A stretch of DNA of 64,000 nucleotides, taken from Cyanobacteria bacterium SIG30 (GTDB taxonomy: Bacteria; Cyanobacteriota; Vampirovibrionia; Gastranaerophilales; Gastranaerophilaceae). Location: the NCBI GenBank assembly GCA_015152475.1, contig SUTW01000003.1, positions 62,001-126,000 on the forward strand. The letters are read 5' to 3'. This document shows, piece by piece, positions 19,730 to 32,309 of this stretch. Within the stretch, counting starts at the first letter, position 1; the number at the start of each line of letters is the position of its first letter. The notes beneath the pieces are model-generated. The model saw nothing but the letters and a program-made list of their open reading frames with translations. It was not told the DNA's origin and searched no databases. The position numbers were made by a program, and so were the translations under genes.

Positions 19730-20554
19730 TTACCAAGGATATAAACTTGCTTCTCCCCCAAGCTCAACATACTTTTCTTTACTTGGTATTTTGCCACCAT
19801 TACCATACAAAATTAAACTTGTACAATACACACCAGCCATTGCAGTTCCAGATGTTACGCAACCACCTCTGAAACCACCTTGCCCATCGCTAAAACCCCT
19901 AATGTATGAACTAGGATTATTGTCATTTGATTTAGGTGGCATAATATAAGGTTTAACATGTTGTGGTCTCATCTCACCTATACGAGTGTTAAAAAGAAAA
20001 AGATGAACATCAACACCTAATTTATTTGGTTTTTTCCACCCATTTGTATCTATATAAAATTGAACTTCTCTTTTTTTAGAATTTTTACTGTTACTACCAG
20101 ATGAAAATGAAGTAATTGCAGTACCATTTGCTAAATAAAAACGAACATAATCGGATGTATTTCCTATAACAAAAACTTGATTATCAAGTGTATGTATATC
20201 ATAAGTACAATCTGAAGAATCAGAATTTCCACAATATTTAGCAACTTTTAAATAAGGAATTATATAAGTATCTAAAAAATCAACTGTGTCTTGTGCGCCA
20301 TTATCTATCCCTATTTCCCAAAAATTCACATGTCCATAATCTTTAATTGCCATATTTAAAGCAGTACTTAACAAAGAATGTGCATTTTTTATTCTTGTTT
20401 CAATTTCTTGGTTTCTGTAATTCGTTATAACAGAAGGAATTGTAAGTGCTGCGACAACACCAATAATGGCAAGTGTGATAAGTACTTCGGCTAAGGTGAA
20501 AGCTTTTAATCTATTATTGCCCCCCCCCCCGTGATTAAAATTAAATCTATACAT
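19730..20554 (-). CDS. Type IV pilin-like prepilin, poly-G tract in frame (ON)
   Basis: This 274-residue prepilin has a short basic leader and the class III signal AFTLAEVLITLAIIGVV, with Glu at +5, then a long alpha helix and a globular domain with four cysteines in two pairs. Prepilin peptidase would cut before FTLAE. The leader contains a run of eleven Gs (codons 9-12, four glycines) directly after codon 8. With eleven Gs the frame is open through the gene. A good promoter lies 57 bases upstream. The neighbouring gene is a paralogue built the same way. Function could be a minor pilin, pseudopilin or adhesin. Confidence 0.85.
   Translation of the reverse strand: MYRFNFNHGGGGNNRLKAFTLAEVLITLAIIGVVAALTIPSVITNYRNQEIETRIKNAHSLLSTALNMAIKDYGHVNFWEIGIDNGAQDTVDFLDTYIIPYLKVAKYCGNSDSSDCTYDIHTLDNQVFVIGNTSDYVRFYLANGTAITSFSSGSNSKNSKKREVQFYIDTNGWKKPNKLGVDVHLFLFNTRIGEMRPQHVKPYIMPPKSNDNNPSSYIRGFSDGQGGFRGGCVTSGTAMAGVYCTSLILYGNGGKIPSKEKYVELGGEASLYPW
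20520..20530 (-). repeat. Homopolymeric G11 tract in pilin leader codons
   Basis: Eleven consecutive Gs on the coding strand (Cs on the plus strand) in a strongly AT-rich sequence. The reading frame into the pilin signal needs a length of 3n+2, which eleven satisfies. Tracts of this length typically slip during replication. Confidence 0.9.
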
Positions 20555-20610
20555 AATTTTTAAAATCCTTTCTTAATTTCCGTATTTAAAAAAAATTATC
20601 CTACATTTTT

Positions 20611-20638
20611 ATTATAACATTTTTTTAAGATGTTTCAA
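20611..20638 (-). promoter_or_regulatory. Promoter of the first pilin gene
   Basis: TTGAAA (20633-20638) and TATAAT (20611-20616) are separated by 16 bases, with TGT directly before TATAAT as an extended -10. The leader is about 50 bases and has AAAGGA as Shine-Dalgarno. The whole upstream segment is nearly identical to that of the second pilin gene. Confidence 0.75.
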
Positions 20639-20650
20639 GAGGGCAAAATA

Positions 20651-20686
20651 AAATAAAAGCCCCAAAATTAATTGAAGCTTTTATTT
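20651..20686 (-). terminator. Stem-loop after the second pilin gene
   Basis: AAATAAAAGC and GCTTTTATTT form a 10-bp stem around a 16-base loop. It lies 15 bases beyond the stop codon of the second pilin gene and before the promoter of the first. The stem is AT-rich and the U tract is imperfect, so it is a candidate only. Confidence 0.5.
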
Positions 20687-20700
20687 ATAAATTTTAATTT

Positions 20701-21509
20701 TTAGAAATTCCAAGGATATTTAGCTCTGTAACTTTCATCTCCGCCTGCTGTTTTAACATACTCGTCAACCGTTGGGATTTTCCAACCATTTTTGTATATC
20801 AAGGACAAACAATAAATACCAGTTCTTCTGTTTTCTAAAGTTTTATCACACCCGCCATAAGCATCTGTTATATTTAAACGCGCATCCCCATAACTTGGGA
20901 AACCAAACATAAATTTTCTTTTTTCATTTGTTGAATTTGGATTATACATAAAAGGAAAAATATCGATTCCAACCTTATTTGGTTTTTTCCAGCCATTTGT
21001 ATCTATAAGAAAATTTGCAGAAGCAGGTTCTCCGGTTGTATTATTTCGACTTACATAAACAGAAATCGCTGCACCATTTGCCAAATAAATCCTTGAAAAA
21101 TCACTATTTGCATCAGTTGCAAAAAAAGTAAAAGGTTTACCGTTTAAAGCTAAAACATCATAGGCGCAATCATTTTCAGGTGAAGAACCACAATTTTTAA
21201 TAATTTTTATGTATGGTGCCCAATATTTTCTAATAAAACCTTCTTCATAGGTTTCATTATCATTCTTTTCAAATGTCCAAGTATTAATTGTGCCATTATC
21301 TTTAATTGCCATATTTGTTGCATTTGCAATTAAATTATAAGTACTTTTAAGGGTGGTTTCAATTTCATTTTTTTTATGATTAGCAACAACTGATGGAATT
21401 GTGAGTGCTGCAACAACACCAATAATAGCAAGTGTGATTAAAACTTCAGCAAGAGTGAAAGCTAATCTATTAGTTGCCCCCCCCCGTGATTAAAATTGAA
21501 TCTATACAT
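20701..21509 (-). pseudogene. Second type IV pilin-like gene, poly-G tract out of frame (OFF state)
   Basis: From the ATG at 21509 the first eight codons match those of the first pilin gene, then nine Gs follow. With nine Gs the frame runs CAA CTA ATA GAT TAG and stops after 15 codons. With ten Gs it would read GCA ACT AAT AGA and continue through AFTLAEVLITLAIIGVV and on to the stop at 20701, giving a prepilin of about 270 residues. Everything downstream of the tract is intact, including paired cysteines and a glycine/asparagine-rich globular domain. I therefore read it as a switchable gene in its OFF phase rather than a decayed one. A homopolymer sequencing error is the main alternative. 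Confidence 0.82.
21477..21485 (-). repeat. Homopolymeric G9 tract in the second pilin leader
   Basis: Nine consecutive Gs on the coding strand at the same codon position as the G11 tract of the neighbouring paralogue. A length of 3n+1 is needed for the downstream pilin frame, so the present length is off by one. Confidence 0.9.
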
Positions 21510-21564: not shown

Positions 21565-21592
21565 ATTATAACATTTTTTTAAGATGTTTCAA
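21565..21592 (-). promoter_or_regulatory. Promoter of the second pilin gene
   Basis: TTGAAA (21587-21592), a 16-base spacer and TATAAT (21565-21570) with extended -10 TGT. The sequence from the promoter to the ATG is almost the same as upstream of the first pilin gene, so both should respond to the same signals. Confidence 0.75.
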
Positions 21593-25823: not shown

Positions 25824-28094
25824 TTAAGCAATGCTTGATCCTCCAGAAGATGAAGAACTACCGCCATTTCCACCTGTTGATGCTTGTCCGCCACCATTAT
25901 TTCCGCCAGCAAAAGCTGAACCACCATTGCTTGTGCTTGCTTCCATAGAAGCTGATGCATCACTTATGTTAGTATCTGTTGTTGTTTGACCGTTTGTTGT
26001 ACCAGTTGCAACAGCTGTAGATATCGCTTGTGAAGCGCTCATAGCAGCTGCAGTTCCAACACCTGCAGTCATTGAAAGAAATGCGATTGTTGTTGTTTGA
26101 GCACTTGTATTTTCTTGAGAAGCTTCTGATGAAGTTGCTGAATCAGAAGCAGCTTCGCTAGCTTCAGCGTACGCAGCAAGCCAGCTTGAAGCTTTACTTG
26201 CGGCAAGAGCCTTAGCATTCCAGCCTGAAGCTTCACCTTTTGTTGGAACATAAGCTATTGTGTTGTTATTTATATCATTTGATTGGATATTGTTTGCAAT
26301 TGTAGCTCCTGCTTCTTCATTCATAGCACTTGCAATAGTTGCGCCCGCTTCTTCTGTTGATGCTTGAGCAATTGTAGCTCCTGCTTCTTCAGGCATAGCA
26401 CTTGCGATAGTTGCGCCCGCTTCTTCTGTTGATGCTTGAGCAATTGTAGCTCCTGCTTCTTCAGGCATAGCACTTGCGATAGTTGCGCCTGCTTCTTCTG
26501 TTGATGCTGCCGCACCTGTTATGCCGTCTTCAGATTTTGATGCACTTGCAATAGTTGCGCCTGCTTCTTCTGTTGATGCTGCTGCACCTGTTATGCCATC
26601 TTCAGATTTTGACGCACTTGCAATAGTTGCGCCTGCTTCTTCTGTTGATGCATCCGTAACAATAGAATCAATTTCTTCAGCTGATGCTGCACCACCTGTA
26701 ACGCCGTCTTCAACTAATTGTGTTTCATCATAATTAATTTCATTAGTATTGGTATTATTATTGTAGCTTGAAGTTGGAGTTTGAGTTGTATCTGCATCTG
26801 AAGCTTGATCCACGTTAGATGATGTGTTGCCTGCTGGCGTAGAACCTGATCCATTGTTGGCTGAAGTATTGTTATTTTTTTTAGTTCCAAGGTCTTTTAC
26901 TAAATTGTGTTTAATAGATTCTTCTTTTTCTGATTTATCAGATTTTTTTGCGAATTCAGAAGTAGGCGTTAAAACCTCCTTGGTGTCTGGTTCTTCTCTG
27001 GTTTCAGTTATTTCTGTAATAGTAGCAGCCATGGTATTGCCAACATTAGCATCTGATTCACTTTCTATGCTAGCACCGGAAACATTGACGTTTTCTCTGT
27101 TTGAATCTGATTTTTTAACACCAGATTGTCCAAATTGTTTATTTAATGCATCAATTTGTTCATCAGTTAAATTGACTTCATCACCGTTTTCATCAACATA
27201 AGTGACTTTATATTCCTTAACAAATTCAGCACCTTCTTCAAATTCTTTATTGCCGCCACTCATTTCTTCAACAACTGCAAAAACAGATGTTGTAGTTTTT
27301 TTAACAAAACTGCATATAAAGCCTTCTTCTGGTTTAAATTCTTCATTGTTTTCATCAACAAAAATTATATTACCTGTTTCTTCATCTTTTTTGGCAGTCA
27401 AAATAATTTCATCCGCAGTAATTTGATTATCTTCAGCTGATTGTGTAGATTCTTGAACGTCTGTAGGGGCCGTTGCTGTTGACACTTTTATTTTAGTACC
27501 TTCTTCAATTTCAATTGGTTGTTCATCTTCACCAACAAATTTAATTGAACCATCTTCATTTTTAAGCATTGAAGCTTTGGTTTCTTTTTCTTCTGTAAAA
27601 TCAATTTTATAACGTTTAACTTCAGGAGCATTATTTGCAATAGGTTCTTGTTCTTTATTGATTGAAGAATTTTGAATAACATTTTGTGATTCAACAGTTG
27701 TTTCTTTAGATTCTTTAGACAAACCTATAAAAAAGTTAGATATATTAGTTAATGCTTCTTTTGTTTTATTAACAACTTTTTTTGTAGTATCAACAACTAC
27801 TTCTGCAGCCTTTTTCACAGCTTTTTTAGTTGAATTCCAAGCCTTTTCAAATATATTTGGCTCATCTTTTTTGTCAGATTTTGTTGTTTTAGGAGCAGAT
27901 TTTGTAGCTTTAGTTGTTTCAGATGTGATGTCTGAAACTTTACCTGATTTAGAAACAAAACCGTCAGTTGTAACACTTTTAGGTTCAAAAACTTGTACGT
28001 TCTTTTTTTCAGCTTTTTTATCAGCCTTTTTATTTTTCTTTGGGGTAACTGCTTTGACTACTGTATCTACTACTTTTTTAATAAAACCTAACAA
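25824..28094 (-). CDS. Large low-complexity repeat protein of unknown function
   Basis: The 756-residue protein has an amphipathic N-terminal helix (MLGFIKKVVDTVVKAV), a lysine-rich stretch, a second amphipathic helical segment (about 85-125), and a long acidic/Ser/Thr-rich disordered part. An Ala-rich block follows with tandem copies of EEAGATIASA, ending in a Gly/Ser tail. No Sec signal or sortase motif is visible. The amphipathic helices could coat a membrane or lipid surface. The start is TTG at 28094, with GGAG eight bases upstream. The upstream region shares a 20-base element with the ribbon-helix-helix gene at 55499. Function unknown; length and repeats suggest a surface or structural protein. 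Confidence 0.75.
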   Translation of the reverse strand: MLGFIKKVVDTVVKAVTPKKNKKADKKAEKKNVQVFEPKSVTTDGFVSKSGKVSDITSETTKATKSAPKTTKSDKKDEPNIFEKAWNSTKKAVKKAAEVVVDTTKKVVNKTKEALTNISNFFIGLSKESKETTVESQNVIQNSSINKEQEPIANNAPEVKRYKIDFTEEKETKASMLKNEDGSIKFVGEDEQPIEIEEGTKIKVSTATAPTDVQESTQSAEDNQITADEIILTAKKDEETGNIIFVDENNEEFKPEEGFICSFVKKTTTSVFAVVEEMSGGNKEFEEGAEFVKEYKVTYVDENGDEVNLTDEQIDALNKQFGQSGVKKSDSNRENVNVSGASIESESDANVGNTMAATITEITETREEPDTKEVLTPTSEFAKKSDKSEKEESIKHNLVKDLGTKKNNNTSANNGSGSTPAGNTSSNVDQASDADTTQTPTSSYNNNTNTNEINYDETQLVEDGVTGGAASAEEIDSIVTDASTEEAGATIASASKSEDGITGAAASTEEAGATIASASKSEDGITGAAASTEEAGATIASAMPEEAGATIAQASTEEAGATIASAMPEEAGATIAQASTEEAGATIASAMNEEAGATIANNIQSNDINNNTIAYVPTKGEASGWNAKALAASKASSWLAAYAEASEAASDSATSSEASQENTSAQTTTIAFLSMTAGVGTAAAMSASQAISTAVATGTTNGQTTTDTNISDASASMEASTSNGGSAFAGGNNGGGQASTGGNGGSSSSSGGSSIA
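26305..26665 (-). repeat. In-frame tandem repeats coding EEAGATIASA units
   Basis: About nine copies of a ~10-12 residue unit are arranged as higher-order 24-residue (72-base) blocks: two of the type STEEAGATIASASKSEDGIT and about three of the type STEEAGATIASAMPEEAGAT. Neighbouring copies are nearly identical at DNA level, so copy number is likely to vary between strains without breaking the frame. Confidence 0.85.
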
Positions 28095-31928: not shown

Positions 31929-32309
31929 TTAAGCATTTTTTAATCTAAGTCTTTTTCTGTTTTCAATGTTTTCAACCCAAATCTGAACAGTATCTTCAAG
32001 ATTTTCGTTTTTAACTACTTCTTTAATTTGAATAGCGTAATTGATATCCGTTATATCAATTTTTTCACATCTTTCAATATAAAAATCCTCCCCCCCGCAG
32101 TTTGGACAAAAATTTGTTGAAGGCTTAATTAAATCCAAAGAAATCTTCCCTTCACGTTTAATATTGCAGTGCGCGCATCTGACAACATAGTAATATTTTT
32201 TTAAATAAACACCACAATCAGGGCAATATCCCTCATCTGAATGCAAGAGCGCATTTCTGTGTGTGCATTTATTACTCATTCTATTTAAAATATAATCCAT
32301 TAAATTCAT
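31929..32309 (-). CDS. Zinc-ribbon protein containing a G7 tract
   Basis: The 126-residue protein has three CxxC pairs (CPDC, CAHC, CPNC) plus an N-terminal CTHRNALLH, so it could form two zinc ribbons, followed by a helical tail. I do not recognise the family. The CPNCGGEDF segment is encoded by seven consecutive Gs (32090-32096), unusual in this AT-rich sequence; a slip would remove the last half of the protein. A second in-frame ATG lies three codons downstream. It converges with the sigma factor gene. Confidence 0.75.
   Translation of the reverse strand: MNLMDYILNRMSNKCTHRNALLHSDEGYCPDCGVYLKKYYYVVRCAHCNIKREGKISLDLIKPSTNFCPNCGGEDFYIERCEKIDITDINYAIQIKEVVKNENLEDTVQIWVENIENRKRLRLKNA

Follow-up and report, generated by a model that had tools for sequence, protein, structure and literature searches.

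A genome-wide family of prepilin genes with poly-G leader tracts as a candidate phase-variation system in a gut relative of the Gastranaerophilales

We analyzed a stretch of 64,000 nucleotides (nt) from the draft genome of Cyanobacteria bacterium SIG30 (contig SUTW01000003.1; hereafter the window), in which two tandem type IV prepilin genes carry a run of Gs within their leader-coding parts. Given the data presented below, slipped-strand phase variation of the pilin repertoire is the best explanation for the source genome and one we consider likely. The original prediction had already read tract slippage within a cleaved leader as a switch. This is still the best-supported reading, since the tracts are beyond chance, the out-of-frame (OFF) genes are constrained and the genes unable to slip are all in frame (ON). 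On the other hand, its scope, i.e., a tract-switched pair, proved too small: the search for further pilin genes with G tracts, which it had proposed as a check, reveals that the family comprises at least 44 genes in this genome.

Within the suggested mechanism, replication slippage would alter the length of a G tract. With one length in three, the start codon would be in register with the pilin part, while the other two would lead into a stop within about 12-15 codons. If the leader is cut by a PilD-type peptidase, slippage would toggle expression and leave the mature pilin unchanged, such that different cells would express different pilin subsets. The slippage rate, a protein output that follows the frame, leader cleavage, pilus assembly and a biological benefit are the parts of this scheme that we infer.

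The gene pair and its genome-wide family

Re-reading the sequence showed the predicted coordinates of both genes and tracts to be exact. Gene 1 (19730..20554, minus strand) starts with the ATG at 20552-20554 and carries a G11 tract (20520..20530, i.e., C11 on the plus strand) after codon 8. As predicted, its reading frame is open with this tract length, reaching down to 19730 and encoding 274 amino acids (aa), i.e., the gene is ON; tract lengths of 8, 11 and 14 are in frame. The N-terminus matches N_methyl (PF07963, E=7e-6) as well as the NCBIfam prepilin-type N-terminal domain TIGR02532 (above cut-off). Judging the cleavage site from the F-T-L-A-E motif, the mature part would begin with Phe+1 of FTLAEVLITLAIIGVVAALTIP and comprise 256 residues (19733..20500, minus strand).

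Gene 2 (20701..21509, minus strand; ATG at 21507-21509) has its G9 tract (21477..21485, minus strand) likewise after codon 8, where the frame needs G10 (or 7, 13). Translation bears out what had been claimed for this gene, i.e., with G9 it is truncated after 15 codons and thus OFF, while with ten Gs it reads MYRFNFNHGGGATNRLAFTLAEVLITL... and extends over 269 aa to a normal stop at 20701-20703. Its body is intact, with a stop-free coding part for a mature pilin of 252 residues (20704..21459, minus strand). The first eight codons, described as common to both genes, indeed encode identical residues and differ only by a synonymous change at codon 4 (TTT/TTC). By sequence pattern, each gene is preceded by a promoter-like site of TTGAAA, 16 nt and TATAAT, which is found at 20611..20638 for gene 1 and at 21565..21592 for gene 2 (both minus strand).

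The two pilin tracts are the only runs of at least eight Gs in the window. For this AT-rich sequence, 0.04 eight-G matches are expected based on shuffling, compared to 6 observed (overlapping) matches. Apart from these, a single stretch of seven Gs is present in the window (position 32090, C1:94090), located outside any pilin. With regard to GatA, the nearest named relatives are Candidatus Gastranaerophilales, among which L146 is closest (88% identity). Between gatA and yidD, no orthologous pilins are present in L146.

The source genome, a Gastranaerophilales relative, is available as a draft of 1,494,443 bases in 18 contigs that is 89.9% complete. It contains 47 runs of at least seven Gs, of which 45 are located in prepilin leaders, i.e., downstream of about codon 8 and ahead of the invariant FTLAEVLITLAIIGVVAALTIP segment. 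The remaining two, both exactly G7, are found at other sites. The end of contig C5 (G9) and the start of contig C16 (G11) share 126 identical nt through promoter and leader, up to and into the tract, and other contig joins of the assembly overlap by exactly 127 nt. The two ends fit an assembly branch at the tract and probably represent the same locus, hence 44 distinct genes from 45 tracts.

Tract lengths within these 44 genes are 9, 10 or 11 Gs, which puts 19 genes in frame and 24 out of frame, with one gene uncallable (start beyond the contig edge). Wrong-frame readings of the complete genes examined end after about 12-15 residues. Consecutive GGG codons are present in every leader of the family. 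They do not reflect codon preference, because GGG accounts for 10% of glycine codons in the mature parts, whose longest G run is 5. Pairwise identity of the paralogues ranges from 25 to 73% with silent sites near saturation. Across 41 aligned rows, F-T-L-A-E...P is invariant, i.e., the proteins show the class III signal with Glu+5 that defines type IV prepilins, together with a hydrophobic N-terminal helix.

A TTGAAA-16/17-TATAAT site with at most two mismatches overall is found 49-85 nt before the ATG in 40/42 genes whose upstream sequence is long enough. Because of these near-consensus promoter-like sites, each family gene is probably its own transcription unit. The pilus machinery is represented as well, i.e., the source genome encodes PilB-, PilC-, secretin-, PilT- and A24 prepilin-peptidase (PilD)-like genes. 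Given the prepilin-peptidase-like gene, the tract-encoded leader is expected to be cut away.

Frame state, constraint and tract-length differences

The bodies of all 22 complete OFF genes span 227-260 codons without interruption. For comparison, the probability of a stop-free 240-codon stretch in random order of the same composition is about 3e-9. Considering ON and OFF genes together, a broken body is found in 0/42 complete tract-bearing genes. Constraint is also reflected in the median ratio of nonsynonymous to synonymous substitution rates (dN/dS), which is 0.52 for OFF-OFF pairs and 0.56 for ON-ON pairs. The two states are scattered over the family tree with at least 11 state changes.

The genome itself provides a set of controls. 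It contains 56 FTLAEVLIT motifs, 12 of which come without a slippable tract, namely six with short leaders, two with different leaders that lack a G run and four with interrupted tracts, in which other bases break the G run at a total length of ten. Each of the 12 keeps its frame through the leader, compared to 19/43 of the genes with tract (Fisher p = 5e-4); the four interrupted-tract genes taken alone yield p = 0.05. That is, non-slipping genes are kept in frame, while slipping genes need not be. Among the genes with an interrupted tract is a pseudogene (G000:C4:291766, L252; tract GGGGGTGGGG), in which the leader is in frame but the mature part is frameshifted at about its codon 58.

The family thus combines what characterizes contingency loci, i.e., a tract far beyond chance within the reading frame, for which other lengths are frame-breaking, and OFF alleles that are intact save for tract length. 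Differences in tract length are also observed between orthologues and between near-identical copies in other genomes. An orthologous pilin shows G11 in L216 (in frame) vs. G10 in L217 (out of frame), and genome G252 holds near-identical copies with G11 (L279) and G10 (L340), which share 98% identity over 62 compared residues.

We also considered a loss of mismatch repair as cause and rejected it, given that a MutS-family match is found in 20/20 genomes searched. The MutS of this genus (G000:C6:26436, L255; G001:C2:17477, L259) is shorter (789 aa in G000) and more divergent (219 bits) than that of most other genera (about 865 aa, 285 bits), but keeps the FFE motif.

Related genomes and alternative explanations

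To assess the distribution, we used a pattern of at least nine Gs located 5-35 nt before an FTxAE motif. Longer leaders are missed by this pattern, such that all counts are lower bounds. Matches are found in at least 65 of 239 genomes from at least 16 of 41 genera of the bacterial family, while the reversed pattern has 0 matches. In a sample of 292 genomes from the phylum, at least 47 genomes match, all 47 from this family, and no tract-pilin pattern was found among the other genomes of the sample. The tracts of the same-genus genome G001 are part of a longer leader and thus outside the 35-nt pattern. Further genomes hold 67 (G229, with a C before the tract), 35 (G252) and 28 (G141) tract pilins. 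Among viral contigs, no same-species sequence was found.

Some related arrangements were observed along the way. In L188 (16179) and L214 (7050 and 16198), a G11 tract is part of a short open frame that precedes a pilin with a start codon and ribosome site of its own, which suggests a variant of the switch based on an upstream frame. About 90 runs of at least nine Gs each are present in G003, G014 and G022, with 0, 0 and two leader-pattern matches, respectively; here, other gene families may be phase-variable or the leaders may exceed the pattern length. L072 (G018:C25, about 10543) features a G12 inside an apparent acetolactate-synthase-type gene, i.e., a metabolic rather than a surface protein. 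In L378 and L392 (G001 C6 and C50), the contig starts in or just before the G run, and the pilin shows two tandem FTLAEVL leader signals. Finally, the window itself contains a long repeat-rich frame of 756 aa with EEAGATIASA repeats (25824-28094, minus strand).

Several observations weigh against slipped-strand phase variation of pilins. First of all, 82/90 tracts in G229, G141 and G252 (loci L267-L294 and L295-L374) deviate from the frame by one G, with a direction specific to each genome: one G more is needed in G229 (37/39) and G141 (22/25), one fewer in G252 (23/26). For G229 and G141, the needed length is identical across three different leader layouts. The records that match the contigs of these two genomes in length have SPAdes-style NODE names; therefore, long-read basecalling error is unlikely for them. 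When considering one tract per genome in other genera, about 3/27 are in frame. Free random switching, which predicts about one third in frame, does not describe G229, G141 and G252. Second, a MutS with FFE mismatch-recognition motif is present in the source genome. Third, the presence of both G9 and G11 at one apparent locus (contigs C5 and C16) could stem from stutter of the polymerase chain reaction or sequencing, or from near-identical paralogues. Fourth, the nature of the proteins has to be considered. Profile searches place their N-terminal part only, among geopilin, PilA and other type IV pilins. A structure model built without Met1 (predicted local distance difference test, pLDDT, of 85) combines the long pilin N-terminal helix with an alpha-beta head, and a fold search of this model found no significant match for the head domain among solved structures. 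Since the head is unmatched, the case for pilus formation is built from the N-terminus and the machinery. Presumably, the proteins are pilins rather than pseudopilins.

The uniform register would result either from selection for a default-OFF state with a narrow mutational mode of tract length or from programmed slippage. Extending this to the whole bacterial family, a default-OFF register might be selected and combined with a regulated or programmed slip (of DNA, RNA or ribosome), such that one or few of the dozens of pilins are made at once. We regard this broader proposal as tentative and rather doubtful.

The strongest competitor of phase variation is a programmed slippage of RNA polymerase or ribosome at a set frequency, by which a constant low expression would be reached even though the genes are out of frame, with length changes of the DNA being incidental. 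The uniform off-by-one register and a needed length that is constant over three leader layouts (G229, G141) argue for it. Within the source genome, however, lengths are mixed and 19/43 are exactly in frame. Furthermore, the sign of the offset differs among genera, unlike what is expected from a single fixed recoding mechanism. Overall, we deem this explanation unlikely.

It is still less probable that all tracts are truly in frame and that their Gs were miscounted in the draft. Contigs of the assembly do end at tracts and poly-G is a known sequencing difficulty (PMC9187656). However, 24/43 tracts would need a miscount, mostly by one extra G. Sequencing stutter usually shortens tracts, i.e., the excess of one G runs opposite to this tendency. 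In addition, the exact 127-nt overlaps of contig ends point to short-read assembly, and orthologues as well as near-identical copies elsewhere are also one G apart. The poly-G leaders found throughout the family would stand even with miscounts.

Two further explanations are very improbable. That OFF genes are decaying pseudogenes with G runs as relics finds an example in the body frameshift of the tract-interrupted C4:291766, but conflicts with the lack of broken bodies among the 42 complete tract genes and with the equal constraint on OFF and ON genes. Hardly more credible is that the G runs chiefly serve recombination among copies, i.e., a reshuffling of pilins by pilE-like gene conversion, perhaps via G-quadruplexes. 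In its favor, no residue varies among the first 22 of the mature parts, where silent sites differ by 0.37 compared to 0.54 in the rest, and promoter and leader are common to the copies. In the source genome, however, no copies are near-identical (identity of at most 73%), and most close pairs show a synonymous divergence (dS) near 1. Moreover, almost all copies come with a promoter of their own, and recombination does not account for the frame pattern.

Comparison with known systems and implications

In the opa genes of Neisseria, it is the leader-coding part that contains the repeat, so that the mature protein is unchanged. There are 11 such genes per strain, with CTTCT repeats (PMC5320596). 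The pilin family resembles opa in that many dispersed surface-protein paralogues each have a frame-setting slippable repeat; paralogues (44 genes), own promoter-like sites (40/42) and leader repeats are all found. In contrast, the repeat is here a single-base G tract, the products belong to the type IV prepilins instead of the outer-membrane barrels, at least 44 copies are present and no pathogenicity is known for the host. Instead of homology to Opa barrels with pentamer repeats, we observe the prepilin signal and G tracts. By analogy, the family would work like opa without being a member of it, given that protein class, repeat unit and lineage differ.

For Bifidobacterium breve, control of sortase-dependent pili by G-tract slippage was reported based on deep sequencing and in-frame mutants (PMC9187656). 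Similar to our case, this concerns a gut commensal and a G tract within a pilus gene, but only one or two operons are involved, the Gram-positive pili are sortase-assembled and there is no multigene repertoire. Campylobacter jejuni shows 18-39 phase-variable genes per genome (PMC6321876), also with many G tracts of about 9-11 and mixed frame states. There, the tracts are found in unrelated gene families, while here essentially all are placed at one pilin site.

Variable type IV pili are also a theme shared with Neisseria pilC and pilE/pilS as well as with Moraxella bovis. The poly-G gene pilC encodes a pilus-associated protein and is tabulated with two copies (PMC5320596). However, variation arises from gene conversion in pilE and from DNA inversion in M. 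bovis, i.e., in neither case from frame slippage in a pilin leader. A pilE/pilS-like organization with one expression locus and promoterless silent donors is not what we find, since nearly every copy is a full gene with a promoter-like site. For Gastranaerophilales, no account of such switching was found in the open-access literature; within that search, this agrees with the original statement that no description exists for gut Cyanobacteria-related bacteria.

Annotation pipelines probably overlook or split more than half of the family genes in the source genome. If the default-OFF reading is true, this genome would represent a state with unusually many pilins switched ON. Taken as phase variation, the tracts form a candidate multi-locus system that is devoted to one pilin family and exceeds the C. 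jejuni range of PMC6321876. Its hosts, from at least 16 genera of one family, are uncultured gut bacteria and not known pathogens. With dozens of parallel switches per cell, the family would be a natural set for work on slippage, on adhesion and on how a commensal evades immunity or phages, and the question of phase variation is testable from existing metagenome reads.
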